Positions 730-38,173 of a stretch of DNA of 38,907 nucleotides are shown here, piece after piece. A program made the translations under genes and the position numbers. Below the pieces are notes generated by a model. That model did no database searches. It was not told the DNA's origin and saw only the letters and a program-made list of their open reading frames with translations. This DNA comes from a virus: IMG/VR virus record IMGVR_UViG_3300049914_000055, positions 1 to 38,907 of that record. One strand, given 5' to 3'. The stretch's first letter is position 1; each line of letters opens with the position of its first letter.

Positions 730-760
730 TTGATTATTTGTTTTGGATTGTTTACATTTG
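730..760 (+). promoter_or_regulatory. Bacteroidota-type promoter of RNA copy A
   Basis: TTG at 730-732 lies 20 bases before TACATTTG at 753-760, which matches the Bacteroidota pattern (TTTG)-N20-TAnnTTTG. The predicted transcript starts near 765, just before structured RNA copy A. Confidence 0.65.
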
Positions 761-766
761 TATCGG

Positions 767-1100
767 ATTTACATGGAGGTAAATGGTACAAATAATTAAC
801 TTATCAAAAAATGCTCTATGCGCTGGCGCAAAATCGCCCGCAGTGATGCAGTCGTTTACACTCCATGTAACGCCAGCCATAGGGTTTTTGACACAGTTTT
901 TCCCGAACCTGATTATATCGAGGTTAATCCAAAACAGAGCAGGATAAGAAGTCTGGAGAGATAAACAAATCCGGGCTACTTCCGATAACTGAAGACCCGG
1001 TCAGTGATGAATAAGAATTCAATTCCAGCCTTTACTGATGAGGATGCTTCGGACCTGAGAGATCAAAGAATGATTTAAGCAGAATATCACTGAATAAAGG
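767..1100 (+). ncRNA. structured RNA family, copy A
   Basis: No convincing open frame exists between 698 and 1209. The segment aligns with 20254-20490 (B) and 37757-38092 (C). Visible helices: P1 CTATG 816-820 plus GCTGGCG 822-828 with CGCCAGC 871-877 plus CATAG 878-882, one bulged base; a small hairpin with a GNRA loop (GCA-GTGA-TGC, 840-849); TTACA/TGTAA 856-870; GGG/CCC 882-884/902-904; AACCT/AGGTT 906-925 around a conserved GATTATATCG loop; CCGGG/CCCGG 971-975/996-1000 enclosing CTTC/GAAG with an 8-base loop; CAGTGAT 1002-1008 with ATCACTG 1086-1092. Pairing positions change together among copies. No poly-U terminator follows, so it may be an untranslated leader or a processed RNA. Its function is unknown to me. 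Confidence 0.75.
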
Positions 1101-1134
1101 ATTTATAACTTAAAATTACAGTAAAATAAATAAA

Positions 1135-1166
1135 TTTGCTTTCTGTTTCAGAATAATATAACTTTG
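1135..1166 (+). promoter_or_regulatory. promoter of the terminase/structural operon
   Basis: TTTG at 1135-1138, 20 bases, then TAACTTTG at 1159-1166. It lies about 45 bases before the small terminase start and is well placed to drive the packaging and virion genes independently of RNA A. Confidence 0.65.
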
Positions 1167-3107: not shown

Positions 3108-4496
3108 ATGGATTGGAAGTCTTTCTTTCCTTTGTCTCTATTCACCGGAAACCGTTCCGGCATCGCTCGCAACCCTGTAAATTCATATAACTATCAGTTT
3201 CTTGTTGACCGTCCCGCATGGCTCTCATTAACTAATAATCATCAGTACAGAGAAGCTGTTGCAGGAAACCCGGTATTATTCGGGTGCATTGATATTCTGG
3301 CTTCGGCAGCAGCTAATGGTAAGAAATACATTGTCGATCTTAAAGGCAAAGAGATACCCTGGGACTCAGGAAAGACAGGTGTTAAGAACGCTCAACGTCT
3401 TTTCGTTTACCGGCCTAATCCATTGCAATCAATCAAAGAATTTAATTATGAGCGGGCTTATATGTTCTTTACATTTGGTAATAATTATGTCTATCTGAAC
3501 AATCCTTTAAAATCTTTTGATACCGACATAGTGAATGTGCAGACGATGTATAATTTACCGAGTGAATATGTCGAAGTAAAACAGACGGGGAAGATTTATG
3601 ACCAAGTTGACCTGAAAGGGATTATTGAGAAATATTGTCTTACAAATTACAGTCCTGTCAGGGATTTTGAAGTCGATAAGATCATTCATTTCAACGATGT
3701 CAATACATCAAATATCGGCAATTCAATCATAGGTTCATCCCGTCTTGAAGTTCTGAAATATCCGATTACGAATACACAACTGGCATTCGAGGCAATGAAC
3801 GTGATACTCAAGTCACGAGGTATGCAGGGGATCATCAAGGCAAATAATAAAGATGCTACCGGGACACAGATACCCATGAGCAAAGAAGCTAAAGATGAAA
3901 TTGACAAAACCTTTAAAACTGAGTATGGCATTCTTGAAGATCAAAAACAATTCTGGATCAGTCATTTCGATATTGATTATATCAAAACAATAATGAACTC
4001 TTCAGAACTCGGTATCTATGATGAGTTCAGCAATAATGCAATGATAATCTCTAATTGTTTCGGTGTTCCCTCTGAACTTTATAAGACATATATGAAGGGA
4101 GCTACATTTGAGAATCAACTTCAGGCTGTTCGCAGACTTTATCAGGACACTATAATTCCAAGAGTAGAGAATGAAGATCAATATTACACTGAACGGCTTC
4201 ACATGAGGGATTATGGTTTTGAACTTCGCACCGATTTCTCACATATACAGGCATTACAGGAAGCCCGAAAAGAGAAGGCAACAGCACTTAGTATGAACTC
4301 AAGGACAGCTGAGACAGCTTATAATAATAATGCAATTACATTGAACCAGTACCTTGAACTCCTTGACATGGAACCTATACCTGATGGTGATATTTATAAA
4401 TTCGAGAGGGATAAGTTAACAAAACCCGAACCGATAGCACCGGTTCCTGATCCAGCATTAGATCCGGCATTAATAGATCAAAACATACAGCAATGA
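3108..4496 (+). CDS. portal protein
   Basis: A 462-residue HK97-type portal, the dodecameric ring through which DNA enters the capsid. Typical segments are visible: GNPVLFGCIDILASAAANGK (about 52-72) where portals have a conserved helix following a short strand, the NPLQSIKEF motif and FGNNYVYL in the clip region, and a C-terminal helical part (RRLYQDTIIPRVENEDQYYTE, near 345-365) followed by a proline-rich tail. Position directly after terminase and before the protease fits. The stop overlaps the next small ORF (ATGA). Confidence 0.92.
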   Translation: MDWKSFFPLSLFTGNRSGIARNPVNSYNYQFLVDRPAWLSLTNNHQYREAVAGNPVLFGCIDILASAAANGKKYIVDLKGKEIPWDSGKTGVKNAQRLFVYRPNPLQSIKEFNYERAYMFFTFGNNYVYLNNPLKSFDTDIVNVQTMYNLPSEYVEVKQTGKIYDQVDLKGIIEKYCLTNYSPVRDFEVDKIIHFNDVNTSNIGNSIIGSSRLEVLKYPITNTQLAFEAMNVILKSRGMQGIIKANNKDATGTQIPMSKEAKDEIDKTFKTEYGILEDQKQFWISHFDIDYIKTIMNSSELGIYDEFSNNAMIISNCFGVPSELYKTYMKGATFENQLQAVRRLYQDTIIPRVENEDQYYTERLHMRDYGFELRTDFSHIQALQEARKEKATALSMNSRTAETAYNNNAITLNQYLELLDMEPIPDGDIYKFERDKLTKPEPIAPVPDPALDPALIDQNIQQ

Positions 4497-11267: not shown

Positions 11268-13433
11268 ATGAAAAAGATTTTTATTTTAATTTTTCTTACA
11301 GTTTGCCTTTCAGGTTATGGGCAACTCAGTAAAGTGCCGATGGGTGTCGGAACAAAACTTAATGTGGCGTTTCCGATTATTAACCTTGCTATTGATCAGG
11401 TGAATGCCAATACAGCAGCAATCAGCCTGAAAACTCCAATAACTAATGCATCAATGCTCGGACTTACAAAACTAACATCATTGAAAGTAGGAAATACAAA
11501 GACAGGTTCGACAGTCGTGCAAATTGATTCAATAACTGTTAATGGTGGAAATATATATTTCTATAACGGTGCAACAATTCTTACAGCAGTTCCGGGAACA
11601 GGAAGTGCAAATTGGGGGTCAATATCAGGATCTATTGCAAATCAAATTGATCTTACAAATGCTTTAAATGCAAAGGCAAATACAAGTCATACGCAGGCGC
11701 AGTCAACCATAACTGCACTTTCAGATAGTCTACTGGCGAGATATACCAAGACACAGGCAAATACATTATTTAATTTAAAGGCAAACACTTCAGCATTATC
11801 AGGTTATGTTCCAACTTCCCGAACTGTCAATGGTCATGCACTTACTGGAAATGTTTCTGTTACGGCAGCAGATTTAAGTTTAGGGAATGTTACTAATGAG
11901 TCGAAGGCCACAATGTTTACAAATAGTGTTTTTACTGGAACACATACTATTCCTTCACCTTTCACTCTTGGAGCAACATCAGTGACAACTACCGGCGCAC
12001 AATTTAACTATTCCAATACTCTTACAAGTAATATACAGACACAATTTAAAAGAATAACAACGGGATTTTATAATGTTCTTACTTATGGAGCAGATTCAAC
12101 AGGAGGAGTGAGCAGTAGTTCTGCGATACAAAGTGCAATTAATACCGCTAAAAATATTAGTGCAAATTATGGTACGGGGGCAACTGTTTATATTCCTGCG
12201 GGAACTTATTTACTTTCTGTTCCTATGAAAATATATTCAAATGTAACAATAGAGGCAGCTCCTAATGCAAGATTTAATATTACGGGTGCACCTGGTTATG
12301 TTTGGACTGCTGATGATATAACAATGTATGCAAATATAAGAGGAGGATTTTGGTTTTTAGATGAAAATACAGATTTTTTTAAGGTTGTAATTCCGACAGG
12401 AAATTATATACAGTTTTGCGATTTTGAGAATATGGTGATTAAACAATGTAAAAATGTATTTGAAATAACATTAAGTGGAACGGGATGGTTTACGGGAGTT
12501 CATTTTACAAATATAAAAGCAGATGAATATGTTAAAATTTTAAAAGTAAGACCTATTACGGTTGGAGATAATTTTGGGGGTAATGTTTTTACTAATATTT
12601 CGTGTCAGTCATTTGATGGTACAAGAAGAACAGTGTCCGTTATTGATTCTTTAGGAGGATCATATAATATGTTTGTCAATTTAATGAACTGGGATTTTAA
12701 TGCAGCAGTTTTAAAAAATTCCTATACAGTTAATTTAACTGCATCTTCACATGATAATTATATATGGGGTGGGGCATTGACTGTTGATACATTGGTGAAT
12801 GATGGTGAGGATAATATGATATACTCAGACGGACAGGCAGTAAGTCATTTTAGCGATAGCTTATTATTGTATGGTAAGTATGGAGACAGGGCAATAATTA
12901 ATAAGTTGACTATTGGTGCTCCTAATGCAGCCGGATCAACAGCAACACCAGCAGGAGATATAGGAATTAAACTGCGAAGTTATATGACAAATGTTAATAC
13001 AAAAGGTTCTAATTATTCTGTTAGGATTGTAGGAAAGAACTCTGCGTCTGAAAATAGGGGTTCATTTATGTATTTACAAACTCATGGAATTGCAAATAAT
13101 GAGAATGAAAGTGCTTATGTAGATGCCTTAAAACTTGATCCTTTAGGTAATGCAGATACTTATGGAGCGGTTAATTATGTTTTAGATAATAGTGCCGGAA
13201 GTAATGATACTTATACAGCAACCATTACAGGATTTGGATTTGTGACGGGAAAGGTAATCACATTTCATCCATTGACAGCGAATACTGACGGCTGTACTCT
13301 AAATATAAATGGAGGCGGTGCAAAGGCTATTGTCAATCAGGTAGGGTCAGGACTAACTACTAATGATATGGTGGCAATTGGCTTTTATCCTCTTTGCTGG
13401 AATGGAACAAACTGGACATTGATGACAAAATAA
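11268..13433 (+). CDS. tailspike / pectate-lyase-type beta-helix protein with signal peptide
   Basis: 721 residues. Residues 1-20 form a Sec signal (KKIFILIFLTVCLSGYG, likely cut before Gln). Residues about 20-260 are a fibre-like stalk containing the common tail-fibre phrase ADLSLGNVTNESKATMF. From about 262 the text FYNVLTYGADSTGGVSSSSA..IQSAINTA..ATVYIPAGTYLLS is the classic start of a Pectate_lyase_3 right-handed beta-helix, the fold of many depolymerase tailspikes that cut surface polysaccharide. The end has a small beta domain (GCTLNINGGGAKAI). Bases 12100-13200 are clearly more AT-rich than the flanking genes, suggesting module exchange. Catalytic residues cannot be identified by eye. 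Confidence 0.8.
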   Translation: MKKIFILIFLTVCLSGYGQLSKVPMGVGTKLNVAFPIINLAIDQVNANTAAISLKTPITNASMLGLTKLTSLKVGNTKTGSTVVQIDSITVNGGNIYFYNGATILTAVPGTGSANWGSISGSIANQIDLTNALNAKANTSHTQAQSTITALSDSLLARYTKTQANTLFNLKANTSALSGYVPTSRTVNGHALTGNVSVTAADLSLGNVTNESKATMFTNSVFTGTHTIPSPFTLGATSVTTTGAQFNYSNTLTSNIQTQFKRITTGFYNVLTYGADSTGGVSSSSAIQSAINTAKNISANYGTGATVYIPAGTYLLSVPMKIYSNVTIEAAPNARFNITGAPGYVWTADDITMYANIRGGFWFLDENTDFFKVVIPTGNYIQFCDFENMVIKQCKNVFEITLSGTGWFTGVHFTNIKADEYVKILKVRPITVGDNFGGNVFTNISCQSFDGTRRTVSVIDSLGGSYNMFVNLMNWDFNAAVLKNSYTVNLTASSHDNYIWGGALTVDTLVNDGEDNMIYSDGQAVSHFSDSLLLYGKYGDRAIINKLTIGAPNAAGSTATPAGDIGIKLRSYMTNVNTKGSNYSVRIVGKNSASENRGSFMYLQTHGIANNENESAYVDALKLDPLGNADTYGAVNYVLDNSAGSNDTYTATITGFGFVTGKVITFHPLTANTDGCTLNINGGGAKAIVNQVGSGLTTNDMVAIGFYPLCWNGTNWTLMTK

Positions 13434-20200: not shown

Positions 20201-20248
20201 ATACCTAAAAGATTTACCAATTTTGTCTTTTTGTTTAGTATATTTTTG
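20201..20248 (+). promoter_or_regulatory. special-type promoter before RNA copy B
   Basis: ATACCTAAAAG starts at 20201, TTTTG lies at 20221-20225 and the -7 box TATTTTTG at 20241-20248. The three blocks have exactly the same relative positions as in the promoter at 20499-20546, while the usual TTTG-N20 arrangement is missing. Confidence 0.55.
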
Positions 20249-20253
20249 TAGGG

Positions 20254-20490
20254 ATAGGGGTTTTAACCGTATCCTCCCCAGTGTCTGATTAAATCGAGAC
20301 AAAAACAAAGGACAAACAGGATTGAAGGTTCGTTTAAGATAACAAAATCCGAGCAATGATTATAACTTATCAACTCGGTCGGTGATAATAAAATGACTTC
20401 AAAAACGACCTTTACCGATAAGGATGCCTTCTACCTGAGTGTTTTAAAAAGCAAAAGGTGATTATTAAGAAATATCACCGATAAAAGTTA
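20254..20490 (+). ncRNA. structured RNA family, copy B
   Basis: A shorter copy lacking the 5' P1 domain of copies A and C; it begins at the conserved ATAGGGG segment right at the predicted transcript start. Helices shared with A and C: GGGG 20257-20260 with CCCC 20276-20279; TGTCT/AGACA 20282-20301 around GATTAAATCG; CCGAG 20349-20353 with CTCGG 20374-20378 enclosing TGAT/ATCA (20357-20360/20369-20372) and an 8-base TATAACTT loop; CGGTGAT 20380-20386 with ATCACCG 20474-20480. The conserved unpaired segment TTTACCGATAAGGATGCC is at 20411-20428. No open frame of note is present in 20161-20570. Confidence 0.72.
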
Positions 20491-20498
20491 CTATGAAA

Positions 20499-27248: not shown

Positions 27249-27272
27249 TTTTTCATAGTAGTTAGAGGTTTG

Positions 27273-27299
27273 CCCCGGCTCAAAAGGTCGGGGTTTTTT
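27273..27299 (+). terminator. strong intrinsic terminator ending the late block
   Basis: CCCCGGC (27273-27279) pairs with GTCGGGG (27287-27293; one G-U), 7-base loop, then TTTTTT. It separates the late genes from the early region. Confidence 0.9.
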
Positions 27300-27316
27300 A
27301 TTAAAAAATCTTCAAA

Positions 27317-27362
27317 AACTGACATTTATCATGTTTTTTGTTTAAATTGTAGTCTATATTTG
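27317..27362 (+). promoter_or_regulatory. operator-type promoter 1
   Basis: -7 box TATATTTG at 27355-27362; no TTTG at the -33 position. Instead an 18-bp element, AACTGACATTTATCATGT (27317-27334), with core TGAC-N4-ATCA. Its centre is 36.5 bases before the last base of the -7 box, as in three other promoters. The upstream half is degenerate. Confidence 0.65.
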
Positions 27363-27402
27363 CTGCATGGTTTTACTTCAATACAGGCAAAAAACGATTG
27401 AA

Positions 27403-27543
27403 ATGAATGACAATAATGAATCAGAAGTCAGGAATCTGCTTGTTTCAACATTACCGCCGGACGAAGTTATCACTATACTGGATGAGGATTTGGAGATTAT
27501 TGAAATATTAAGATTAAATGAGTTATTTAACTATAAACATTAA
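27403..27543 (+). CDS. 46-aa acidic protein
   Basis: A short acidic helical protein (NNESEVRNLLVSTLPPDEVIT..LDEDLEIIEILRL). First gene after operator-type promoter 1, so probably expressed early. Its end overlaps the next gene by 26 bases. No family recognised. Confidence 0.5.
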   Translation: MNDNNESEVRNLLVSTLPPDEVITILDEDLEIIEILRLNELFNYKH

Positions 27544-27727
27544 AACTCAAGCCTATGCCAATCAGGAGAAGGAATTGAGAGGAGAATTGATAAAAGCATT
27601 TAATTGGATTACAAGAAAAGATAGTCCTTATGCAATTATTTGTGGCGATGAAATGCCATTTGCCACAATAGACGAAGATTTTACAGTTGAAGAAATGGTT
27701 GATGAATACTTAAATCCCGCTAAGTGA
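27518..27727 (+). CDS. hypothetical protein, 69 aa
   Basis: A mixed alpha-beta protein (YLTINIKTQAYANQEKELRG, then IICGDEMPFATIDEDFTVEE). It lies in the early operon, overlapping the genes on both sides. The acidic, compact composition is like host-takeover proteins, but no specific match is seen. Confidence 0.55.
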   Translation: MSYLTINIKTQAYANQEKELRGELIKAFNWITRKDSPYAIICGDEMPFATIDEDFTVEEMVDEYLNPAK

Positions 27728-27861
27728 AACCTGAGTCAAAATTCCATTGTCCGATTTGCAATAAGAAATATTTCACAAGAGAACAAACTATGACCTGCGC
27801 CGATGCAGACATAAAAGAGTCATTGGCTAAAAACAGGAAATTAGTACCGATTCAAAAATAA
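27724..27861 (+). CDS. 45-aa Cys-pair protein (GTG start)
   Basis: GTG 27724 overlaps the preceding TGA (GTGA). CPIC at residues 9-12 and a later TC at 24-25 suggest a small zinc-binding knuckle; the rest is basic. Without the GTG start there is no good alternative. It belongs with the other Cys-rich miniproteins of the early region. Confidence 0.45.
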   Translation: MKPESKFHCPICNKKYFTREQTMTCADADIKESLAKNRKLVPIQK

Positions 27862-27867
27862 TGCAAA

Positions 27868-27913
27868 ACATGACAAAAGTCATATAATCTTAACTTTTAG
27901 TTACATATCTTCG
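27868..27913 (+). promoter_or_regulatory. operator-type promoter 2
   Basis: 18-bp palindrome ACATGACAAAAGTCATAT (27868-27885) and -7 box TATCTTCG (27906-27913); centre-to-box distance 36.5 bases, -33 TTTG absent. It drives the recombination gene block from 27937 on. Confidence 0.7.
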
Positions 27914-27936
27914 CCTTAATTTAAACCCTGATAATT

Positions 27937-28083
27937 ATGGAAAATATACTTGATGAACAACAGGCACTCATTGTTGAATCAACGATGATGCCGATAAAGA
28001 AAGCAATGAACCCTGGTGAAGGAACGGAGCCGAATGAACAATGTAAGAATTGTTGCGATAAATGTGACGGTTGTGAGTTTTGA
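27937..28083 (+). CDS. 48-aa Cys-cluster protein
   Basis: The C terminus is CKNCCDKCDGC (residues 36-46), a dense cysteine cluster capable of binding zinc or copper; the first 30 residues are helical and acidic. First gene after operator-type promoter 2. The stop abuts the next start. Function unknown. Confidence 0.6.
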   Translation: MENILDEQQALIVESTMMPIKKAMNPGEGTEPNEQCKNCCDKCDGCEF

Positions 28084-28287
28084 ATGCTTATAATTGGAGG
28101 TTGTATGAACTGGTATAAGGACGAAATAGAACATCACAGGAAAGTCGTTGAGGCTTTTAAGGCTATCACAGACCCTGACACTATCAAAGCAGTCCGGGAG
28201 GCAAATGAACAGATCAGGAATAGACGCTGCGACAAATGCGGACTGCAGTTCAACAATAATGGTTATGACGAATGTAATTGTAAATAA
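28084..28287 (+). CDS. small protein with C-terminal zinc ribbon, 67 aa
   Basis: A helical N-terminal part (YKDEIEHHRKVVEAFKAI) followed by CDKCGLQFNNNGYDECNC, four cysteines in the CxxC-N11-CxC pattern of a half zinc ribbon. ATG 28084 abuts the previous stop; ATG 28105 (MNWYKDE) is an equally good start. It precedes the recombination genes. Confidence 0.6.
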   Translation: MLIIGGCMNWYKDEIEHHRKVVEAFKAITDPDTIKAVREANEQIRNRRCDKCGLQFNNNGYDECNCK

Positions 28288-28295
28288 ATAAAACT

Positions 28296-28709
28296 ATGAA
28301 AGCGATCATTAATGAAGTTGTGTTCAAAAAAGAGTTTGACAGTAAATTTGGTAAGATGTATTCCTTCCAGGTCAAGTATGATGATCAGGTTGCAATCTAT
28401 ACATCAAAATACAAAGATCAAAAGAAATTTATTCCCGGCGAAGAAGCAGAGTTTACAGAGGAAACGAAAACCTATCAGGATAAGCAAGGCAATCCAAAAG
28501 AATATATTATCATTAAGCCGTTGATTCAAAACCGGCAATCAAATTTCGGCAAGTTCTTGAATAAAGAGAAAGCCCGTTATTCTGCTATGGCTGTCAGTTA
28601 TGCAAAAGATTTGGTCTGTAACGGCAGGATCCCGAAAGAGGAACTTAACGATCAAGCCTGGATTCTATTCGAGTTGATGAATGAAATGGACAAAACTCTC
28701 GAATCATGA
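28296..28709 (+). CDS. OB-fold-like recombination accessory protein, 137 aa
   Basis: Residues 1-75 alternate strands in the OB-fold manner (IINEVVFKKEFDSKFGKMYSF, QVAIYTSKYKD.., KEYIIIKPL), then a basic helical half (ARYSAMAVSYAKDLVCNGRI) that resembles the C-terminal helices of phage ssDNA-binding proteins. It overlaps the YqaJ-type exonuclease by ATGA and is two genes before SSB. A single-strand-binding or annealing helper role is inferred from pattern and context. Confidence 0.55.
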   Translation: MKAIINEVVFKKEFDSKFGKMYSFQVKYDDQVAIYTSKYKDQKKFIPGEEAEFTEETKTYQDKQGNPKEYIIIKPLIQNRQSNFGKFLNKEKARYSAMAVSYAKDLVCNGRIPKEELNDQAWILFELMNEMDKTLES

Positions 28710-29329
28710 TTACAATAAATTGTGAACAGCAATCAGAGGCTTGGTTTGCTTCACGTTGCGGAAGAGTTACCGGAACCAGGTTTAAATCTTTAGTCACAAA
28801 GGAAACGACTGATGCCTATAAAGACCTGGTTACTAATATCACCTGTGAGATGATTACCGGCAAAATGGAAGAAACTTATTCCAATGCTATTATGGAATAT
28901 GGTCTGGAAACAGAACCATTGGCAAGGAAAGAATATGAGAATCTTTTTGAACTCGAAGTTAAAACAGTTGGTTTTATTATTCCTGATGAAGATAATAAAT
29001 TTCATGAGTGGATTGGTATTTCACCTGATGGACTATTACCAGAAGAAGGAATCCTTGAAATCAAATGTCCTCTGATGCGAACACATCTTGAATATATCGA
29101 AGCAAACAAACTTCCGGCAGAATATCGCTATCAGGTACAAGGTCAATTATTCGTTACCGGATTCAAATATTGCGACTTTATGTCATTCGTTCCGGGTATG
29201 AAAGCGTTTATCATCAGAGTTTATCCTGACCTTGAACTATTTGCAGAATTTGAAAAAAGAATTGATTTATTAATTCAACAGGTAAACGAGAAACTTGAAA
29301 TCTATAATCAATACAATCATAATGAATAA
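28706..29329 (+). CDS. YqaJ-type (lambda exonuclease-like) nuclease
   Basis: 207 residues of the PD-(D/E)XK exonuclease fold used in phage recombination. Motifs: SRCGRVTGT (17-24), GLETEP with Glu70, GISPDGL with Asp108, LEIKCP with Glu118 and Lys120, and YRYQVQGQLFVTG (about 142-153), the family's QVQ helix. It would resect dsDNA ends. It overlaps SSB by eight bases, giving an OB-like protein, nuclease and SSB module. Confidence 0.9.
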   Translation: MITINCEQQSEAWFASRCGRVTGTRFKSLVTKETTDAYKDLVTNITCEMITGKMEETYSNAIMEYGLETEPLARKEYENLFELEVKTVGFIIPDEDNKFHEWIGISPDGLLPEEGILEIKCPLMRTHLEYIEANKLPAEYRYQVQGQLFVTGFKYCDFMSFVPGMKAFIIRVYPDLELFAEFEKRIDLLIQQVNEKLEIYNQYNHNE

Positions 29330-29744
29330 AGCAATTTTGTATGGTAACTGTGGGAATGATCCTAAAGTTACAAACCTGAAATCAGGAAAGAAAGTAGCAA
29401 AATTCTCTTTAGCTACTAATAAGAGTTATACTAAAGACGGAGAGAAAATCACTGAGACAGCATGGCATAATATTGTATTTTGGGGCAAACTTGCCGAACT
29501 TGCAGAGAAATATGTAAAGAAAGGTAATTCTCTAATTGTCGAAGGCGAGATCATTTACCGGAGTTATGAAAATAAAAACGGCGAGACAGTTTACATTACT
29601 GAGATCATTGGTAATAATCTTCACTTTGTAGGTAGCAAGAAAGAAGATGAAAAACCAAAGAAAACGGGAGATGTCGAAGCAGATATTCGTTCTGGGGCTT
29701 ATGGAGAAATAGCAGAAAACGATCCTTCATATATTCCTGAATGA
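29322..29744 (+). CDS. ssb: single-stranded DNA-binding protein
   Basis: 140 residues from ATG 29322 (NKAILYGNCGNDP), an OB-fold SSB: KKVAKFSLATNKSY, TAWHNIVFWGKLAELAEKYVKKG, SLIVEGEIIYRSYENKNGE. The acidic end (AENDPSYIPE) resembles the SSB tip that recruits partner proteins. An upstream in-frame ATG at 29295 would add a sequence that is only the shadow of the nuclease end. It protects ssDNA in replication and recombination. Confidence 0.95.
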   Translation: MNKAILYGNCGNDPKVTNLKSGKKVAKFSLATNKSYTKDGEKITETAWHNIVFWGKLAELAEKYVKKGNSLIVEGEIIYRSYENKNGETVYITEIIGNNLHFVGSKKEDEKPKKTGDVEADIRSGAYGEIAENDPSYIPE

Positions 29745-29751
29745 AAATAAA

Positions 29752-29783
29752 TTTGTTTAAATGATAATTGTTTTATATCTTTG
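29752..29783 (+). promoter_or_regulatory. Bacteroidota-type promoter before leader RNA 1
   Basis: TTTG 29752-29755, 20 bases, TATCTTTG 29776-29783. The transcript would begin near 29787 with a structured leader of about 70 bases. Confidence 0.7.
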
Positions 29784-29786
29784 GAA

Positions 29787-29856
29787 TCGGATAGCCAGGT
29801 TTGATCACCTGACGAAAGGGAAACCAGAACTCCTTTCCGATTCTTTTTGTTCTGGA
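29787..29856 (+). ncRNA. leader RNA 1 with alternative helices
   Basis: From the predicted start: TCGGA 29787-29791 pairs with TCCGA 29836-29840; CAGGT/ACCTG hairpin 29796-29811; GAAAGG 29814-29819 with CCTTTC 29832-29837; and, exclusive with these, CCAGAAC 29824-29830 with GTTCTGG 29849-29855. A run of five T follows the first fold at 29844-29848. The layout is that of an attenuator or a short ncRNA. The downstream gene is the HNH/AP2-like gene at 29877. Confidence 0.5.
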
Positions 29857-29876
29857 TTATAAAATAAACTGGTAAT

Positions 29877-30347
29877 ATGAAAGATATATTTAAAGGTGTT
29901 AATCATCACTGTTTTAAACATGGACATGAATTGAATGGTAAAAAATCCAAAGTTTATAATGTTTGGGATGCTATGATTCAGCGAACAACTAATCCAAATA
30001 ATACTGCTTATAAAAATTATGGAGGTAGGGGGATATTGGTTTGTAATGAATGGTTGGAATCATCGGTTTTTATTGAATGGGCTTTGAATAATGGTTATAA
30101 AGAGGGATTAGAAATTAATCGCATTGATAATAATGGAAATTATAATCCAGATAATTGTAATTTTGTGGATCATTTTATAAATAACCAAAATAAACGAAAT
30201 AAAGAGGATTTTGGAATTGATCTATGGCACGGTTATTATAGAATTAGAATAACCAGATATAAGGCAACTATTTGCAAATACGCAAAAGATTTAAAAACAG
30301 CAAGGAAAATTAAACAAGATATTTTAAATATATATGAAGATATGTGA
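29877..30347 (+). CDS. HNH endonuclease-like protein with AP2-type end
   Basis: 156 residues matching the widespread free-standing phage HNH family: KVYNVWDAMIQRTTNPNN, YKNYGGRGILVCNEWLES, LEINRIDNNGNYNPDNCNFV and the NQNKRN helix. The C-terminal 45 residues (YYRIRITRYKATICKYAKDL) resemble the AP2-type DNA-binding module often fused to such nucleases. Composition is clearly more AT-rich than its neighbours, consistent with a mobile homing-type gene inserted between SSB and the DUF1367-like gene. It overlaps the next gene by 14 bases. Confidence 0.85.
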   Translation: MKDIFKGVNHHCFKHGHELNGKKSKVYNVWDAMIQRTTNPNNTAYKNYGGRGILVCNEWLESSVFIEWALNNGYKEGLEINRIDNNGNYNPDNCNFVDHFINNQNKRNKEDFGIDLWHGYYRIRITRYKATICKYAKDLKTARKIKQDILNIYEDM

Positions 30348-30651
30348 AATAACTAATCCCAGGAATGTAGGATTTCATCGAAAGTTCTTTGCACTTCTTA
30401 ATGTAGGTCATGAGAACACAAAACTAAAGATGCCTTTTGAAACTTACCGGCACTATGTTATTATGAAAGCAGGATATTTCAAAACATATCAAACACCGAA
30501 AGGTATATTTTATGAAGCAGAAAGCATCAGTTTTGCAAGTAAAAGCCAGGATCAATTTGAGGAAATTTACAGCCGATGCCTTGATATTGTGATTGAAGAT
30601 ATTGGGATTACTTCTGCTGAGGTAGAAAAGCAACTAATCAATTTTATGTAA
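30334..30651 (+). CDS. DUF1367-like protein
   Basis: 105 residues: EITNPRNVGFHRKFFALLNVG then ISFASKSQDQFEEIYSRCLDIV, the two characteristic phrases of DUF1367-type phage proteins found with recombination genes. The function of the family is not settled; co-occurrence with HNH and recombination genes suggests a DNA-repair or Holliday-junction role. The stop overlaps the next start (TAATG). Confidence 0.65.
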   Translation: MKICEITNPRNVGFHRKFFALLNVGHENTKLKMPFETYRHYVIMKAGYFKTYQTPKGIFYEAESISFASKSQDQFEEIYSRCLDIVIEDIGITSAEVEKQLINFM

Positions 30652-30920
30652 TGCAACCACACGTTAAAGTCTATATGAAGTATTTCGATTATAAATCGGA
30701 TGAATTTATCCCTTGTGAATGTTGCGGTAGGAAAGCCAACGACATACATCATATAGACGGTAGGGGGAAAGGTAAGGATGTTATTGAAAACCTGATGTGT
30801 TTATGTATTAAAAAATGTCATCCGAGGGCGCACGGGGCTAAAAACTATGTCAGCAAAGATGAATTTCAGCTAATTCATAATAATTTTTTAATGGGTAATA
30901 GAAAACAATTCTTAAAATGA
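30651..30920 (+). CDS. HNH nuclease-like protein, 89 aa
   Basis: CECCGRKANDIHHIDGRGKG (about 22-41) followed by LMCLCIKKCHPRAHG gives paired cysteines and the Asp-His-His motif of a small zinc-stabilised HNH domain. The family includes recombination endonucleases of the NinG/Rap neighbourhood, which fits the DUF1367-like gene next to it. It is short for a full nuclease and probably acts on branched DNA; that role is inferred. Confidence 0.7.
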   Translation: MQPHVKVYMKYFDYKSDEFIPCECCGRKANDIHHIDGRGKGKDVIENLMCLCIKKCHPRAHGAKNYVSKDEFQLIHNNFLMGNRKQFLK

Positions 30921-31735
30921 GTGAAAATAAATCTTTCGGCTTTTATTGTGATCATTTTCAGAATTATAAAGTTTATCAGATCCCAAAGGCTCAATTAATA
31001 ATTGCTGATATTCCTTTTAATATTGGGAAAGATGCTTATGGTTCTAATCCTGCATGGTATATCGGAGGTGATAATAAAAATGGTGAAAGTGAATTAGCCA
31101 AGACAGAATTCTTTAGTACCGATATAGATTTCAGACCTGCTGAATTTCTTCATTTCTGTTCTCAAATGTTAAGGAAAGAAGGAAAAGAAAGAAATGATGC
31201 ACCTTGTATGATTATATTTTGCGAATTTGAACAGCAATTTTATTTGATAAATAAGGCTAAGGAATATGGATTAAACAATTATATTAATCTTGTATTCAGA
31301 AAAAACTTTTCTGCTCAGGTACTTAAAGCGAATATGCGAGTAGTAGGAAATTGTGAATATGGTTTAATACTTTTTAGAGACAAATTACCTAAATTTAACA
31401 ATAAAGGCAAAATGGTATTTAATTGCTTTGATGTCGAAAGAGATACCGTTACAACTAAAATTCATCCTACTCAAAAATCAGTACCATTATTAAAACAATT
31501 AATAGAGATTTTCTCTGATAAAGGTGACGTTATAATTGACCCTGTTGCCGGTAGTGGTTCAACATTGGTTGCCGCCATTGAATTGGACAGGAAGGCTTAT
31601 GGTTTTGAATTTAAGAAAAACTTTTATAAAGACGCACTTAAATTAATAGAGGAAACTGAATTAAAGAAAAATGAAATGGAAAAATTTGGTTACGCTAAAA
31701 GTTTAATAAGTAAACAAAATCCTATTTTATTTTAA
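30917..31735 (+). CDS. DNA methyltransferase (N6-A or N4-C)
   Basis: 272 residues, beta-class order: motif IV DIPF (31-34) near the N terminus and motif I DPVAGSGST (208-216) near the C terminus, with HPTQKSVPLL (183-192) before it. The catalytic motif reads DIPF instead of the usual DPPF/Y. No restriction partner is adjacent, so it is an orphan enzyme, likely used against host restriction or as a regulator. It overlaps the HNH gene by ATGA. Confidence 0.88.
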   Translation: MSENKSFGFYCDHFQNYKVYQIPKAQLIIADIPFNIGKDAYGSNPAWYIGGDNKNGESELAKTEFFSTDIDFRPAEFLHFCSQMLRKEGKERNDAPCMIIFCEFEQQFYLINKAKEYGLNNYINLVFRKNFSAQVLKANMRVVGNCEYGLILFRDKLPKFNNKGKMVFNCFDVERDTVTTKIHPTQKSVPLLKQLIEIFSDKGDVIIDPVAGSGSTLVAAIELDRKAYGFEFKKNFYKDALKLIEETELKKNEMEKFGYAKSLISKQNPILF

Positions 31736-31761
31736 CTGTTGATAAATATTTCATCAAAGAC

Positions 31762-31791
31762 TTGACAAATGATAATTAATTACTATATTGC
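31762..31791 (+). promoter_or_regulatory. possible promoter before leader RNA 2
   Basis: TTGACA (31762-31767) lies 16 bases before TATATT (31784-31789), close to the classical sigma70 pattern; read as a Bacteroidota promoter it is TTG-N19-TATATTGC, an imperfect -7 box. Confidence 0.4.
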
Positions 31792-31794
31792 ACC

Positions 31795-31930
31795 CCTGTA
31801 TTAAAATGATGCTACGATGAGATCAGAATTTATTTATTGTAGAATAGCCAGCTTCTGGCAACGAATCCCGAAAAGGTTACGGAGTAGCATCTGCCTTGAC
31901 GGGTTTTTTGTTGGGGCTGGCTTTTTTTCT
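31795..31930 (+). ncRNA. leader RNA 2 with terminators
   Basis: GATGCTAC 31808-31815 pairs with GTAGCATC 31884-31891. Inside, GCCAG/CTGGC forms a hairpin (31847-31859), but AGCCAGC 31846-31852 can also pair with GCTGGCT 31916-31922, which is followed by a T run (terminator). A second terminator-like helix uses CCCG 31867-31870 and CGGG 31900-31903 followed by six T. Shared features with leader RNA 1 are the ATAGCCAG hairpin followed by ACGAA, and a 3' TTTTTGTT..GG segment. An attenuator for the gene at 31950, or a small RNA. Confidence 0.55.
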
Positions 31931-31949
31931 AAACTTAAAACTTTAAATT

Positions 31950-32177
31950 ATGACACTGAAAGACAAAAAAATTATTGAAGATGGAGAAACCAAAGGTATC
32001 CCTATTTTCGTCCTGACTGCGAAAGATCAAATTTCGCTTAGTATTCTTGATTATTACCGGGCATTATGCAGATCAGAAGAATGTCCTCAGACTCATATTT
32101 CGGAAATTGGTGAGAGGATTGATGAGTTCAAAAAATGGCAGAAGAACAATCCTGATAAAGTAAAACTTCCTGATTGA
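31950..32177 (+). CDS. hypothetical protein, 75 aa
   Basis: A small acidic protein (GIPIFVLTAKDQISLSILDYYRALCRSEECPQTHISEIGERI) with one long predicted helix pair. It is alone between two structured leaders. Similar small proteins are seen in Bacteroidota phages and mobile elements, but I cannot name a function. Confidence 0.6.
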   Translation: MTLKDKKIIEDGETKGIPIFVLTAKDQISLSILDYYRALCRSEECPQTHISEIGERIDEFKKWQKNNPDKVKLPD

Positions 32178-32216
32178 TAATAAGAGATAATTTTCCGATA
32201 ATTATTTTAACTTAAA

Positions 32217-32248
32217 TTTGCTTATCTGGAATAATAGTTATATATTTG
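32217..32248 (+). promoter_or_regulatory. promoter of the replication block
   Basis: TTTG 32217-32220, 20 bases, TATATTTG 32241-32248. Transcription would start near 32253, at the first base of the leader helix. Confidence 0.75.
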
Positions 32249-32252
32249 CACT

Positions 32253-32384
32253 GTGATTAATTTATGTAGCATGAAAATCAAGAATTATAAATAACAATAT
32301 AGGCTCCTTCTCCGGGAACTTCATTCATGCGAATTAAGTTAATCACACACCGGAGTTAGGGGCTTTAAATTTTGTGTGATTATG
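32253..32384 (+). ncRNA. leader RNA 3, possible translational switch
   Basis: GTGATTAA 32253-32260 pairs with TTAATCAC 32339-32346, closing a domain that holds GCATGAA/TTCATGC (32269-32275/32324-32330). CTCCGG 32310-32315 can reach outside to CCGGAG 32350-32355, as in a pseudoknot. Competing with the closing helix, AATCACAC 32341-32348 can pair with GTGTGATT 32374-32381, which touches the start codon at 32382. The two states would expose or hide the start of the replication initiator gene. Confidence 0.55.
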
Positions 32385-33101
32385 AGTAAAAGATTTATTG
32401 ACACGGGTTTTTTGGATCAAAAATGGATAAGAAAATTATCTCCGGAAAGGAAGATATTTCTTATTTATTTGATGTTAAAATGTGATAATGGCGGAATCAT
32501 TGATCTGGATTTGGAAGATGCAAATTTTTGGATTGGTAAGAAAATAGAGAACCTTGATTTTTTACCTAAAGATTACCTAATTTCTTTGAATAGTTCAGGT
32601 AAATATTTTATGCCGAAATTTATTGAATGGCAATATAAGGATTTATCTTCTCAAAAATATATCGTTGTTCAGGCAAAGCAAATACTTGAAAGACACGGAC
32701 TTATAAATAATGATTTCACTTTAAATTTATCTAATAATTACGTAAATATTACGAAAGAGTTACCTGAAAGTCAGGTAATAGGTATAGGTAATGGTAAAGG
32801 TATAGGTAATGGTAAAGAAGGGCAAAAATTCAATTTTGATTTTGTCGAATTGCCTTACAAGGAAACTTTTGATAACTGGATTGAATTTAAAAAAGCACGT
32901 AAAGAAACATATAAAACTCAAAAATCATTAGAGGCTTGTTATAATCAATTATTAAGGTTTTCAAATAACGATCCTTTAAAGGCTTCACAGATAGTTACAC
33001 AATCTATGGCGAATAACTGGGCTGGTTTATTTCCCCTGAAAAGTATTAACACTAAAAAACAATTTACAGATGCAGACTTTGAAAACACAGATAGCAAATA
33101 A
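32382..33101 (+). CDS. replication initiation protein (DnaD-like organisation)
   Basis: About 239 residues. The N-terminal half is a winged-helix-like domain (FLDQKWIRKLSPERKIFLIYL..DNGGIIDLDLED), then a Gly/Asn linker (GIGNGKGIGNGK), then a helical C-terminal domain (YKETFDNWIEFKKARKETYK, AGLFPL) as in DnaD/replisome-organiser proteins. It precedes a helicase gene, as in phage replication modules. GTG 32376 is an alternative start; ATG 32382 gives MSKRFID. The linker DNA contains two 18-bp direct repeats that may be origin iterons. Confidence 0.75.
   Translation: MSKRFIDTGFLDQKWIRKLSPERKIFLIYLMLKCDNGGIIDLDLEDANFWIGKKIENLDFLPKDYLISLNSSGKYFMPKFIEWQYKDLSSQKYIVVQAKQILERHGLINNDFTLNLSNNYVNITKELPESQVIGIGNGKGIGNGKEGQKFNFDFVELPYKETFDNWIEFKKARKETYKTQKSLEACYNQLLRFSNNDPLKASQIVTQSMANNWAGLFPLKSINTKKQFTDADFENTDSK
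32761..32816 (+). repeat. candidate replication origin: palindrome plus two iterons
   Basis: TACCTGA-aag-TCAGGTA (32761-32777) is followed by two perfect tandem copies of GGTATAGGTAATGGTAAA (32781-32798 and 32799-32816), in the linker-coding part of the initiator gene. Lambda O likewise contains its origin iterons. The repeats also encode a plausible Gly/Asn linker, so the origin role is a suggestion. Confidence 0.45.
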
Positions 33102-33360
33102 ACTGGCAGGATTCTATGCCTTTGCCGGCTTTCAGATTGATGAATCACAGATTAAGGAATTATCAAATCTCATCTTAAACTCAAAAAAAGATGTTACGAT
33201 AGAATGGGTTAGTCGGTTTATTGATGAAGCAAAGTCAGGAGAATTTGGAATGATTTATAGTTCTCCAGTAAGCCTAATGGTTGCCCTCAAACAATATAAA
33301 GATAAATATATCATTCCTGAGTTTGGAACTCCAGGAACTAAGGTATCAGAAATAAGATGA
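33070..33360 (+). CDS. possible helicase loader-like protein, 96 aa
   Basis: A helical protein (QIANKLAGFYAFAGFQIDES, VTIEWVSRFIDEAKSGEFG) between the initiator and the DnaB-type helicase, overlapping the first by 32 bases and the second by ATGA. Position suggests a helicase loader or helicase partner; there is no ATPase motif. Function inferred from place only. Confidence 0.5.
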   Translation: MQTLKTQIANKLAGFYAFAGFQIDESQIKELSNLILNSKKDVTIEWVSRFIDEAKSGEFGMIYSSPVSLMVALKQYKDKYIIPEFGTPGTKVSEIR

Positions 33361-34715
33361 TAGATAAACCATTTCCATCTGCCATTGATGCCGAGCAGGC
33401 AATACTCGGAACCTGTCTGATGAATCCTAATTCAATACTTGAGATAGCGTCCATACTAACACCGGAGATGTTTTACATTGAGTCGAACCGTCAGCTTTAT
33501 ATAGCAATACTTGAGACGGCAAAGAAAACCGGAACATCGGATATATTTTCTGTTTGTGACTATCTGAGAAAGAAAGAGCAACTGGAAAACTTTGGAGGAG
33601 TTGTCGGGCTGACAAAAAGAACAGAGAATATAATATCAGATGCTTACCTGCAAAATTATGTTTACCTGGTGCGTGAGAAGTTTGTGCTTCGTGAATATAT
33701 CCGACTCGGTAATGAAGTCTCAAATCTGGCTTTCTCCGAGGATTTAAAAGATGTCATTGAACTGGCAGAATCGAAACTCTTTAATATCTCAAATTTCATT
33801 CAGACAAAAGAGGCTAAAAAGATAGACCGGTGTATTGATGAACTATTATCTGAAATAACAAAAATTTACAATAAAGAAAAATCACTTGTCGGTGTGCCTT
33901 CTGGATTTACAGATATTGATAGGATAACAGGGGGATGGCAACCAGGAAATCTTATTATCATTGCCGGTCGTCCTTCAATGGGTAAGACAGCACTTGCACT
34001 TACTCTTATTAAGAACCCTGCCGAACTTAAATATCCTGTTGTTTTATTCTCTTTAGAGATGTCGGAGAGCGAAATAACCACTCGCCTACTTTCCGGAGAA
34101 TCGGGATATACAAATATAGAGATTCGTAATGCAAGGATCGACCTCGACAAATTATCGAATGACAGTAATAACATTGCTGTTTATCCTATTTACCTTGACG
34201 ATACTCCGGCACTTAGTCTTTTTGATCTTCGTTCAAAAGTAAAAAAGCTAATTGTAAAAACTGGCATTAAATTGGTCGTTGTTGATTACCTGCAACTGAT
34301 GAAAGCCGATGCGAAAAGTCGTGAACAGGAAGTTAGTCAGATTTCAAGGGGACTGAAGGCAATATCAAAGGAATTTAATATACCGGTCATTGCAATTTCA
34401 CAATTAAATAGAGCCGTTGAAGATCGTGCAGATAGGAAACCGAGGCTTGCAGACCTGAGAGAATCCGGAGCTATCGAACAGGATGCGGATATTGTATGTT
34501 TTATTTACCGGCCTGCTTATTATAATATTTCAGAGTGTACAATTAACGGCGAAAAGATTGACAGTAAAGGACTTATCTCTTTTGATTGTTCTAAAAACCG
34601 CAACGGAGCTTTATTTAATATTCCACTTTGGCACAATCAATCAGTAACAAGAATAACAGATATTAGAAATGATGAAGATAAACAAACATCGGTGGATTCC
34701 GCAAACAGGTTTTAA
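33357..34715 (+). CDS. dnaB: replicative DnaB-type helicase
   Basis: 452 residues, the usual DnaB length. N-terminal domain opening PFPSAIDAEQAILGTCLMNP; a RecA-type core with Walker A GRPSMGKT (204-211), FSLEMSESEI (231-240), Walker B LVVVDYLQLM (306-315), the SQLNRAVEDR sensor region (348-357) and DLRESGAIEQDAD (366-378). It unwinds the fork as a hexamer. It overlaps the preceding gene by ATGA. The genome has no visible polymerase or primase, so host enzymes probably complete the replisome. Confidence 0.97.
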   Translation: MIDKPFPSAIDAEQAILGTCLMNPNSILEIASILTPEMFYIESNRQLYIAILETAKKTGTSDIFSVCDYLRKKEQLENFGGVVGLTKRTENIISDAYLQNYVYLVREKFVLREYIRLGNEVSNLAFSEDLKDVIELAESKLFNISNFIQTKEAKKIDRCIDELLSEITKIYNKEKSLVGVPSGFTDIDRITGGWQPGNLIIIAGRPSMGKTALALTLIKNPAELKYPVVLFSLEMSESEITTRLLSGESGYTNIEIRNARIDLDKLSNDSNNIAVYPIYLDDTPALSLFDLRSKVKKLIVKTGIKLVVVDYLQLMKADAKSREQEVSQISRGLKAISKEFNIPVIAISQLNRAVEDRADRKPRLADLRESGAIEQDADIVCFIYRPAYYNISECTINGEKIDSKGLISFDCSKNRNGALFNIPLWHNQSVTRITDIRNDEDKQTSVDSANRF

Positions 34716-34830
34716 AACTTGGAAATGTGCAAAATGTGGATGTGTGAGATACTGGGATTTAATCTTACAGAGAATTGTATTTGTTAAATACTCGAAACAA
34801 TATTACATGACGCCTGATTGTGATTTATAA
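34672..34830 (+). CDS. 52-aa zinc-ribbon-like protein
   Basis: Starts inside the helicase gene (44-base overlap) at ATG 34672. Contains CAKCGC at residues 19-24 and an isolated late Cys50, so at most half a zinc ribbon; the rest is aromatic and basic. Similar in style to the other small Cys-pair proteins. The overlap and the lack of a clear partner pair lower confidence. Confidence 0.45.
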   Translation: MKINKHRWIPQTGFKTWKCAKCGCVRYWDLILQRIVFVKYSKQYYMTPDCDL

Positions 34831-34874
34831 CACCAGGAGATAAACGATCACTATGGAAACGGAAAATTAATAAA

Positions 34875-34920
34875 CCATGATAAAAGTCATGTTTTGTTGA
34901 AAACTTGTTAATTACCTTTG
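34875..34920 (+). promoter_or_regulatory. operator-type promoter 3
   Basis: Palindrome CCATGATAAAAGTCATGT (34875-34892) and -7 box TACCTTTG (34913-34920); centre-to-box distance 36.5 bases, no -33 TTTG. It would drive the genes from 34958 on. Confidence 0.7.
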
Positions 34921-34957
34921 AGAATAATTCATGTTTAACTAAATAAAAATTACAATT

Positions 34958-35185
34958 ATGGAACACAGGACGGTGCAATCAGAAAATTTCAATTATCTTA
35001 CAATTGAACACACAAAAGACGGTATAATTCTTACCGGAGAAACTAAAGAAGGATTAGATAAAGATGACACAATTCAAAATCCTTACAAAGCAAATGAATT
35101 TCTTCCAATTAAAAAGATATTAGAGAGGAGAGATTCAAGAGATTACCCAAAAGTAAATAATTATTTTTATAAAATTCTTTTATAA
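34958..35185 (+). CDS. hypothetical protein, 75 aa
   Basis: A small beta-rich, charged protein (FNYLTIEHTKDGIILTGETKEG) followed by a helical end. First gene after operator-type promoter 3, so probably early-expressed. No family recognised. Confidence 0.55.
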   Translation: MEHRTVQSENFNYLTIEHTKDGIILTGETKEGLDKDDTIQNPYKANEFLPIKKILERRDSRDYPKVNNYFYKILL

Positions 35186-35192
35186 GTTTATT

Positions 35193-35429
35193 ATGAAACC
35201 AAAAGGAAAAATCGCAGTACGTGCAGCCGTCGAGAAGGTATATCCTTCTCTGCCTCGTCAATTCAGTTTGATGCGACTCCATGCAGAAGTAATTAAAGAA
35301 GTTCGCAGACCGTATCTATTTTTAGACACAAGTAGAAGAAAACTGGATGAACTCAGGGAGGAAGGCTTAATCAGTTTTAAGAATACTGACAAAGCGAAAT
35401 CACTTTACGAAAAAACAGATAGGATGTAA
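35193..35429 (+). CDS. small winged-helix-like protein, 78 aa
   Basis: A basic protein (RAAVEKVYPSLPRQFSLMRL, RRKLDELREEGLISFKNTD) whose helix arrangement with a terminal beta turn (LREEGLISFKN) fits a winged-helix DNA-binding fold. No recognised family. Follows the gene at 34958 by seven bases. Confidence 0.5.
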   Translation: MKPKGKIAVRAAVEKVYPSLPRQFSLMRLHAEVIKEVRRPYLFLDTSRRKLDELREEGLISFKNTDKAKSLYEKTDRM

Positions 35430-35431
35430 CT

Positions 35432-35524
35432 ATGGACATAATCGCAATAATAGCAATAAGCCTCATTATCGGAGGCATCGTTGGGTGGAATCTTTATAAA
35501 TGGTTATTAAACAAACTAAGATGA
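35432..35524 (+). CDS. 30-aa membrane peptide
   Basis: Almost entirely one membrane helix (IIAIIAISLIIGGIVGWNLY) with a basic end. Its stop overlaps the start of the next gene (ATGA), which supports translation. Single-span peptides of this size can act on membrane proteins; no specific role seen. Confidence 0.5.
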   Translation: MDIIAIIAISLIIGGIVGWNLYKWLLNKLR

Positions 35525-35769
35525 GACATTATGCAGATTATTTAGAACTTGCAGTTGCAAGGAATCTTACCAGGCTAAATATTGATTTTGTCCATGAAAG
35601 CGAAAATAAAGAACAGGGATTGGATTTTTATTTGCCGAAACAAGATGTTTATATTGAATTGAAACAATTCCATTCCGATAGAATTAATGAACAATTAAAA
35701 TCGAGAGATAATGTCATTGTTCTACAAGGTAGAAAGGCTATTCACTTTTTTAATTCTATAACAAGATGA
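35521..35769 (+). CDS. mini PD-(D/E)XK nuclease-like protein, 82 aa
   Basis: Starts at ATG 35521 (MRHYADYLELAVARNL), overlapping the previous stop. GLDFYLPKQDVYIELKQF places an Asp about twelve residues before Glu-x-Lys, the PD-(D/E)XK nuclease pattern, followed by NVIVLQGRKAI, which fits the next strand and helix. An earlier in-frame ATG at 35500 lies in the membrane-peptide gene and is less likely. It overlaps the next gene by ATGA. Endonuclease function is inferred from the motif. Confidence 0.55.
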   Translation: MRHYADYLELAVARNLTRLNIDFVHESENKEQGLDFYLPKQDVYIELKQFHSDRINEQLKSRDNVIVLQGRKAIHFFNSITR

Positions 35770-35984
35770 AAACAATAAAATACATAATCTGTTATTTCTG
35801 TGAGAAGCATCACCGGAAAGTTTTTGATACATGGTATTTGCAGGATTCTATTATTACGGGCAGGGGCAAGATTGATATTTGGTTGCTGAATATAATACAG
35901 TTATTCATTCCTGATTACAGGAGATTTTTAAAGAAATGGCATGAAGATAATTCTTATATCAGATATACTTCATATTGGAAATGA
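35766..35984 (+). CDS. hypothetical protein with Cys pair, 72 aa
   Basis: Reads IKYIICYFCEKHHRKVFDTW at the N terminus, with CYFC and a nearby HH that could bind one zinc, then aromatic helices (IDIWLLNIIQLFIPDYRRFL). Coupled by ATGA to both neighbours. No family recognised. Confidence 0.5.
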   Translation: MKTIKYIICYFCEKHHRKVFDTWYLQDSIITGRGKIDIWLLNIIQLFIPDYRRFLKKWHEDNSYIRYTSYWK

Positions 35985-36352: not shown

Positions 36353-36364
36353 AACTATAAAATT

Positions 36365-36673: not shown

Positions 36674-36691
36674 TAATTTAAAAATAGTATT

Positions 36692-37120: not shown

Positions 37121-37197
37121 GGGTTATGAGGGCATTGCGAAACAGCGAGTTAATTAAAATGCTTACCTTTACAGATGTTAAACTTAATTTTGAGACA

Positions 37198-37620: not shown

Positions 37621-37687
37621 AGCGGGGCAGCGTTCTTTACAGTCAGGTTATACTCTTTCTTAATAATTACCAATTCGCCCCGCTTTT
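37621..37687 (+). terminator. terminator with long-loop stem
   Basis: AGCGGGGC (37621-37628) and GCCCCGCT (37677-37684) form a perfect 8-bp stem followed by TTTT; the loop is 48 bases. It ends the block before the promoter of RNA copy C. Confidence 0.65.
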
Positions 37688-37718
37688 AATAACTATGTTA
37701 ATAAGTTCTTTGAATAAT

Positions 37719-37750
37719 TTTGCATTTTGGATTTGATTATTGTATATTTG
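37719..37750 (+). promoter_or_regulatory. promoter of RNA copy C
   Basis: TTTG 37719-37722, 20 bases, TATATTTG 37743-37750, a perfect match to the Bacteroidota pattern. Confidence 0.75.
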
Positions 37751-37756
37751 TCTCGA

Positions 37757-38092
37757 TTAGTTTTGGGACAATGACACAAATACAAAATTTGAGGCTCTAT
37801 GATCCGGCAATAATTTCTGCCGAGAGGCCGTCATTTGTTTCCCAAAACAAGCCGGACATAGGGTTTCATAACTTACTTTTCCCATTGGCTGATTATATCG
37901 AGCCTAAATCCAAAGCGTACAGAATAGGAAGTCTGGAATAGATAAACAAATCCAGGCTCCGAGTGAAACTTCTCGACCTGGTGGGTAACATTCGAAAGAA
38001 TAACTTTTCAGCCCTTACCCGATAGGGACACTTCCAATCTGAGTGCTAAATTGAGTTTTAAGCAAAGAGGTAAAAGTTACCCGATAAAAGTT
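37757..38092 (+). ncRNA. structured RNA family, copy C
   Basis: Most complete partner of copy A. P1: CTATG 37797-37801 and TCCGGC 37803-37808 with GCCGGA 37851-37856 and CATAG 37857-37861, one bulged base as in A; inner GNRA hairpin GCC-GAGA-GGC (37819-37828); TTGTTT/AAACAA (37835-37850); GGG/CCC 37861-37863/37881-37883; GGCT/AGCC (37887-37904) around GATTATATCG; CCAGG/CCTGG (37952-37956/37977-37981) enclosing CGAG/CTCG and an 8-base TGAAACTT loop; GGGTAAC 37983-37989 with GTTACCC 38076-38082 or with TTACCC 38015-38020. The open frame crossing it (37720-37941) is not conserved in copy A and is rejected. Confidence 0.78.
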
Positions 38093-38127
38093 TTATGAAT
38101 TGAATTATGAAACAAAGTAACAAACCG

Positions 38128-38173
38128 ACATGATATAAATCATGTTTTTTACCGAATAAGTGTTTTATCTTCA
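38128..38173 (+). promoter_or_regulatory. operator-type promoter 4 (palindrome may also terminate RNA C)
   Basis: Palindrome ACATGATATAAATCATGT (38128-38145) followed by T residues, and -7 box TATCTTCA (38166-38173); centre-to-box distance 36.5 bases, no -33 TTTG. The hairpin with its T run could also stop transcripts coming from copy C. Confidence 0.65.

Follow-up and report, generated by a model that had tools for sequence, protein, structure and literature searches.

Three intergenic segments of the window, by which we mean the whole 38,907-nt stretch analysed here (IMG/VR virus record IMGVR_UViG_3300049914_000055, positions 1 to 38,907), raise the question of whether they encode one structured RNA and, if so, whether this RNA acts in cis on the transcripts that it heads or in trans. 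The original prediction had described them as three copies, A, B and C, of one RNA family, and every helix quoted in its support is found in place. Copy A consists of a 5′ domain (769..881) followed by helices H1 to H4 and a conserved tail ending at 1110; copy B of a core without the 5′ domain (20252..20496); copy C of a 5′ domain (37760..37861) and a core (37861..38098). All RNA elements, promoters and terminators given below for the window lie on its plus strand. The three segments are diverged copies of a single RNA, with A and C sharing 76% identity over 106 nt (blastn, E=1.5e-13).

A covariance model (R1) was built from A, the near-identical L001 copy, B and C, and members were sought with R1, with DNA patterns taken from the conserved H1-H2 stretch and with a further model, R2, that covers this stretch. 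The search produced 24 distinct members, the L001 copy being counted once, as its own record: A, B, C, L001, L021, L008, L093, L033, L031, L100, L237, L101, L096, L036, L039, L029, L030, L032, L035, L041, L092, L113, L044 and L057. Construction of such a model had been proposed as a check, and it returned independent, full-length homologues in contigs outside the window, with R1 scores of 191 bits for L093, 178 for L031, 175 for L021, 171 for L033, 89 for L100 and 66 for L101. Copy B scores 238 bits with R1, in which it is itself included, and 64 bits with R2. Two of the members, L100 and L237, occupy a single 82.6-kb contig, and one relative, G003, carries both L021, the orthologue of B, and L008. 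Nearly all members are located on uncultivated viral contigs, the two exceptions being bacterial MAG contigs, L044 from a Bacteroidetes MAG and L057 from a MAG named Atribacteria. The latter is an 11-kb contig (JAFGSC010000298.1) and need not indicate a host outside Bacteroidota, as it may derive from a phage and have been mis-binned.

In the genome collection, the 5′-module pattern produced 40 matches, two of them clear (L044 and L057); L069, matched at E=0.002, lacked sequence context and was rejected, and the others were judged to be chance. R2, run on evenly drawn genomes from the phylum and order of G025 (two samples, each of about 395), found only the known G025 copy, and blastn of the A, L036, L041 and L100 copies against 50,697 cultured-phage records detected no homologue. 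The view that this is not a known RNA family also held against Rfam 15, which gave no matches in the window at gathering cut-offs and none on A, B or C even at E values up to 10, with ROOL, GOLLD, group I and II introns, riboswitches, 6S RNA and tmRNA among the families searched. On ten loci with other members, the sole sub-threshold Rfam match near the RNA was a 16.9-bit tmRNA match, which falls on the tRNA that precedes the L028 copy. Weak isrG matches were discarded, as they fall outside the RNA, in the GCTGCTTAT repeat gene found at both ends of the record.

The core of the RNA spans 230-245 nt, or about 330 nt together with the 5′ domain. Thermodynamic folds exceed shuffles only mildly (z of -1.98 for A, -2.69 for B and -2.53 for C), so the structural case rests on comparison among members. 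The covariation proposed from the three copies is confirmed there, with H2, H3 and H4 standing far above column shuffles and slid controls. No row lacks H2, which has the form N5-GATTATATCG-N5 and whose individual pairs occur as up to five different pair types; three of its pairs are intact in 22 of 22 rows, with 3-5 pair types each. Its covariation score over these rows is 0.466, against 0.12 after shuffling (none of 500 shuffles reached the observed score) and no more than 0.087 after sliding. For H3 and H4 together (12 rows) the corresponding values are 0.547, 0.18 and at most 0.069. RNAalifold recovers both helices unprompted and adds a hairpin, H5 (CCN..NGG), inside H4. A further hairpin, H6, was recognized by inspection 3′ of the CTGAG block (GTATTT-CAA-AAATAC in L031, AATTGTT-AAATAG-AACAATT in L008). 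H3, H5 and H6 are assigned with less certainty in the type 2 members (alignment A4), which are shorter and have diverged further.

In copy A, H1 is formed by 882-884/902-904 and H2 by 906-910/921-925, with GATTATATCG as its loop (882..925; covariation in 22 members). The H3 hairpin, supported by covariation and by the unprompted fold, has an outer helix of 5 bp, an inner helix of 4 bp and a loop of 8 nt (971..1000). H4 (1002-1008/1086-1092) encloses H5 (1029-1031/1041-1043) and H6 (1062-1065/1071-1074), the domain with its conserved tail covering 1002..1110. In copy C, supported by R1 and covariation, H1 lies at 37861, H2 at 37887-37904, H3 at 37952-37981 and H4 at 37983-37989/38076-38082, while copy B is supported by R1, R2 and its orthologue L021.

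Upstream of H1, the 12-pair P1 noted earlier in A and C is upheld, since no partner swap matches its true pairing (0/2000). The comparison also adds a helix to those first described: P0, at the 5′ end of the transcript, crosses P1, which makes the 5′ domain a pseudoknot. P0 pairs 769-785 with 854-870 in A, across P1 at 816-828/871-881, and a GNRA hairpin occupies 840-849; in C the corresponding helices are 37760-37775/37830-37848 and 37797-37808/37851-37861. Present in most members at 7-19 bp, P0 differs almost wholly in sequence between subtypes. Its score exceeds that of shuffles by 4.4-8.5 standard deviations in nine members (6.2 in A), and it is likewise unmatched by partner swaps (0/2000). 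Five members (B, L008, L092, L096 and L029) contain no supported P0, and we therefore define the core as H1 to H4. In L008 a tRNA-Met (cat; 3552-3621) takes the place of the P0/P1 domain between the TAnnTTTG promoter and the core. That several subtypes hold the same helices by compensatory change argues that the RNA itself is selected.

Part of this region also lies in open reading frames. An ORF of 54-100 codons extends from an ATG just 3′ of the P0 5′ strand through H2 in many members, and an ATG-opened ORF passes through H1/H2 in eleven (A, C, L031, L033, L035, L036, L041, L093, L100, L113 and L237). Substitutions in the overlapping ORFs are spread evenly across codon positions, most gaps have lengths not divisible by 3, and the reading frame across the conserved block varies between members. 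A leader peptide or other coding function ('DYIE'/'LIIS' frames) was rejected on these grounds, the missing codon bias and the frame-breaking gaps indicating that the RNA is conserved and not a peptide. Three other readings were dropped as well. An E. coli-type promoter within H1-H2 (TTGACA-N17-GATTAT) occurs in some members only, B, C, L031 and L035 having lost it while retaining the hairpin; the hammerhead-like CTGATGA of A is unconserved in B and C; and a pseudoknot between the H1 loop and a downstream strand (GTTTT/AAAAC) is not claimed, because swapped partners score equally well (mean 250, against 247.5 for the true pairs).

The alternative pairing suspected at the last helix proved to be a genuine covarying feature. 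In the 12 type-1 members, the H5 loop contains a strand that matches the first bases of the H4 5′ strand as a pairing partner, and these are the very bases that pair with the H4 3′ strand. With loop and strand sequences read by hand from alignment A5, 0 of 20,000 partner swaps were as good as the true combination. The alternative strand is TTACTG at 1032-1037 in A and TTACCC at 38015-38020 in C. As the H5 loop and the H4 3′ strand compete for one partner, the RNA would have two alternative states.

Such an exchange could serve a cis-regulatory switch, controlled by a ligand, a protein or translation, that would act on the downstream genes. The covariation of the mutually exclusive strands fits this proposal, as does the location of the RNA immediately before genes in L093, L033 and L008. 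We nevertheless regard a switch as unlikely: the downstream genes share no function, a terminator is not consistently present among members, and in six members a second promoter, described below, bypasses the leader. The RNA precedes terminase small or large subunit genes of three families (A and L008; L092; L096), a virion structural gene in L246, probable scaffold/capsid genes in L032, an epimerase gene in L033 and genes without known function in other members. In L039, the first gene 3′ of the RNA is pentapeptide-repeat-like (12249-12896), and a similar gene is located at positions 1-1000 of L014, among phages of this group; repeats seen in these genes are ..GADLQGADL.. / ..ADLRGADL...

The promoters belong to the sigma-ABfr type, the consensus of which combines TAnnTTTG at -7 with TTTG at -33 (PMC7366714). 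The original prediction placed each copy at the head of a transcription block, and this is largely borne out: a TAnnTTTG promoter lies 107-147 nt, usually about 120 nt, upstream of H1 in most, though not all, members with a 5′ domain. All copies are sense with respect to the gene they precede and occupy intergenic gaps of about 250-600 nt between co-directional genes. Copy A has the -7 box TACATTTG at 753..760 with CTTG at 729-732 as the -33 element, copy C the -7 box TATATTTG at 37743..37750 with TTTG 20 nt upstream, and copy B a -7-like TATATTTTTG at 20239..20248, immediately 5′ of the core. This arrangement favours a cis-acting leader RNA of mostly late phage operons, as does the placement of copies before terminase, scaffold/capsid and virion structural genes, and so does the covarying alternative strand. 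In L096 and L029 the core, here without a 5′ domain, directly follows the upstream ORF, as expected for an element acting within a transcript. A terminator is missing between RNA and gene in most members, so transcripts should continue into the genes.

Some of the same surroundings would also suit an RNA acting in trans, made from its own promoter or cut from the leader and binding polymerase, a defence or decay protein, another RNA or a like factor. A second TAnnTTTG promoter separates RNA and gene in A, B, L100, L036, L030 and L237, which counts against a cis leader, as transcripts begun there would bypass it; the second promoter of A (TTTG N20 TAACTTTG, 1135..1166) precedes the terminase small subunit gene. 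Copy C is laid out as promoter, RNA, terminator hairpin and next promoter, its hairpin with U-run at 38127..38150 reaching -7.3 kcal/mol (0/200 shuffles). Processing at the tRNA-Met of L008 could release the core, and the style of the elaborate fold is reminiscent of two other phage RNAs, ROOL and GOLLD (PMC12286853). Against a trans role, terminator-like hairpins follow the RNA no more often than they do in shuffled sequences (5 of 22 members versus 0-6) and are clear in C only. Genes in L033 and L093 start at +246 and +252 from H1, soon after the RNA end near +225 to +240, and a trans-acting RNA would not need to head operons in three diverged copies within the same genome. A trans-acting ncRNA is thus possible but somewhat doubtful, and is a close rival of the cis leader because of the several second promoters and the one terminator in C.

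The layout of the genome bears on the cis leader further. Both record ends fall within one GCTGCTTAT repeat gene, so that the record is probably a circular genome opened inside this repeat; positions 1-266 and 38412-38907 lie in one gene with GCTGCTTATGCTGCTGAT-type repeats, an alanine/tyrosine-rich protein repeat. Terminase, portal, tail and DnaB genes were recognizable with PHROGs. The early block (approximately 27360-37620) has a plain promoter only and no RNA copy, and is flanked by terminator hairpins at 27264-27304 and 37618-37692. Its last gene (37126-37620), with a weak match to SLT transglycosylase (lysozyme-like), adjoins the second of these, a terminator-like 10-bp hairpin just 5′ of the C promoter. 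Copies C, A and B head the co-directional late region that follows, which ends at the strong intrinsic terminator 27264..27304 closing the B-headed block. That late blocks are headed by copies and the early block is not speaks for a late cis leader; the small number of predicted internal terminators in the RNA-headed blocks speaks against it.

Relatives differ in whether they carry the element. G003 has copies at both the A and the B junctions, the one before terminase (L008) belonging to another subtype, and this position kept while the subtype changes also favours a cis leader. The B junction, filled in the window and G003, is empty in G006 (L254 2922-2995), where the same two flanking genes are separated by a 72-nt gap, and no RNA precedes terminase in G001 and G006. 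Presence and absence at the same junctions make the element a unit of gain and loss, and close relatives without it weaken the cis reading. This pattern, like the multiple diverged copies within one genome, would agree with a cassette of promoter and RNA that persists chiefly because it spreads itself or because it stabilizes late mRNA from the 5′ end. We consider such a cassette improbable, given the compensatory changes that point to selection on the RNA itself and the cores located well inside transcripts in L096 and L029, where a 5′ stabilizer would give no benefit.

The cis leader resembles in its proposed mode of action the put RNA of phage HK022, which works in cis via the zinc-binding domain of beta′ to suppress pausing and intrinsic or Rho-dependent termination. 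To our knowledge, no put-like RNA has been described in the host phylum Bacteroidota. HK022 put comprises about 70 nt in two stem-loops, lies in the early operons of a lambdoid phage and acts on transcribing polymerase (PMC9378689). As with putL and putR, the RNA lies close behind phage promoters, in more than one copy per genome and with no dedicated protein partner evident. Unlike put, it is several-stemmed and far longer, with a pseudoknot and a long-range closing helix, and is located mostly before late genes, in phages whose promoters are of the Bacteroidota type; no homology between the two was found in either sequence or structure, and these differences in size and fold count against the cis reading. 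Judged by sequence and structure, the RNA is new as a family, having no Rfam member and not the size and fold of put, and an unnamed homologue may sit in candidate lists such as PMC8040213.

Weighing these points, we tentatively prefer, at well short of even confidence, a cis-acting leader that would modify elongating polymerase in a put-like mode without being a member of put. RNA polymerase would start at the TAnnTTTG promoter and transcribe the RNA, which would fold while emerging, from the optional P0/P1 pseudoknot through H1, H2 and H3 to the H4 domain. We infer the timing of its refolding, in which the first H4 strand would initially engage the H5 loop and then exchange it for the 3′ strand of H4. 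The folded RNA would then act on the elongating polymerase, allowing it to pass pauses and terminators in long late operons. A more specific form of this idea, which we find rather doubtful, is a protein-independent processive antitermination RNA that would render Bacteroidota polymerase resistant to terminators and pauses on late operons, with the two-state helix as a timer, making it an RNA counterpart of lambda Q unrelated to put.

EAR, LoaP- and UpxY-type leader systems, which are likewise leader elements at long operons, help transcription through them and depend on a NusG paralogue or another short RNA element. The likeness to ROOL and GOLLD is that of large pseudoknotted phage RNAs without known function, sometimes near tRNAs; those two are Rfam families, unlike the leader RNA, and have different structures of about 660 nt and often more than 800 nt, respectively (PMC12286853). 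The leader RNA represents a large, strongly conserved RNA class of environmental phages that was missed by Rfam and absent from the cultured-phage searches made here, and the covariance model and empty-site comparison render it directly testable, in cis or in trans. If it acts in trans, it would be a new phage ncRNA; if antitermination is true, it would be a new form of RNA-only antitermination. Should it act on RNA polymerase, it would show how Bacteroidota phages run their long late operons and would supply an expression tool for Bacteroidota.
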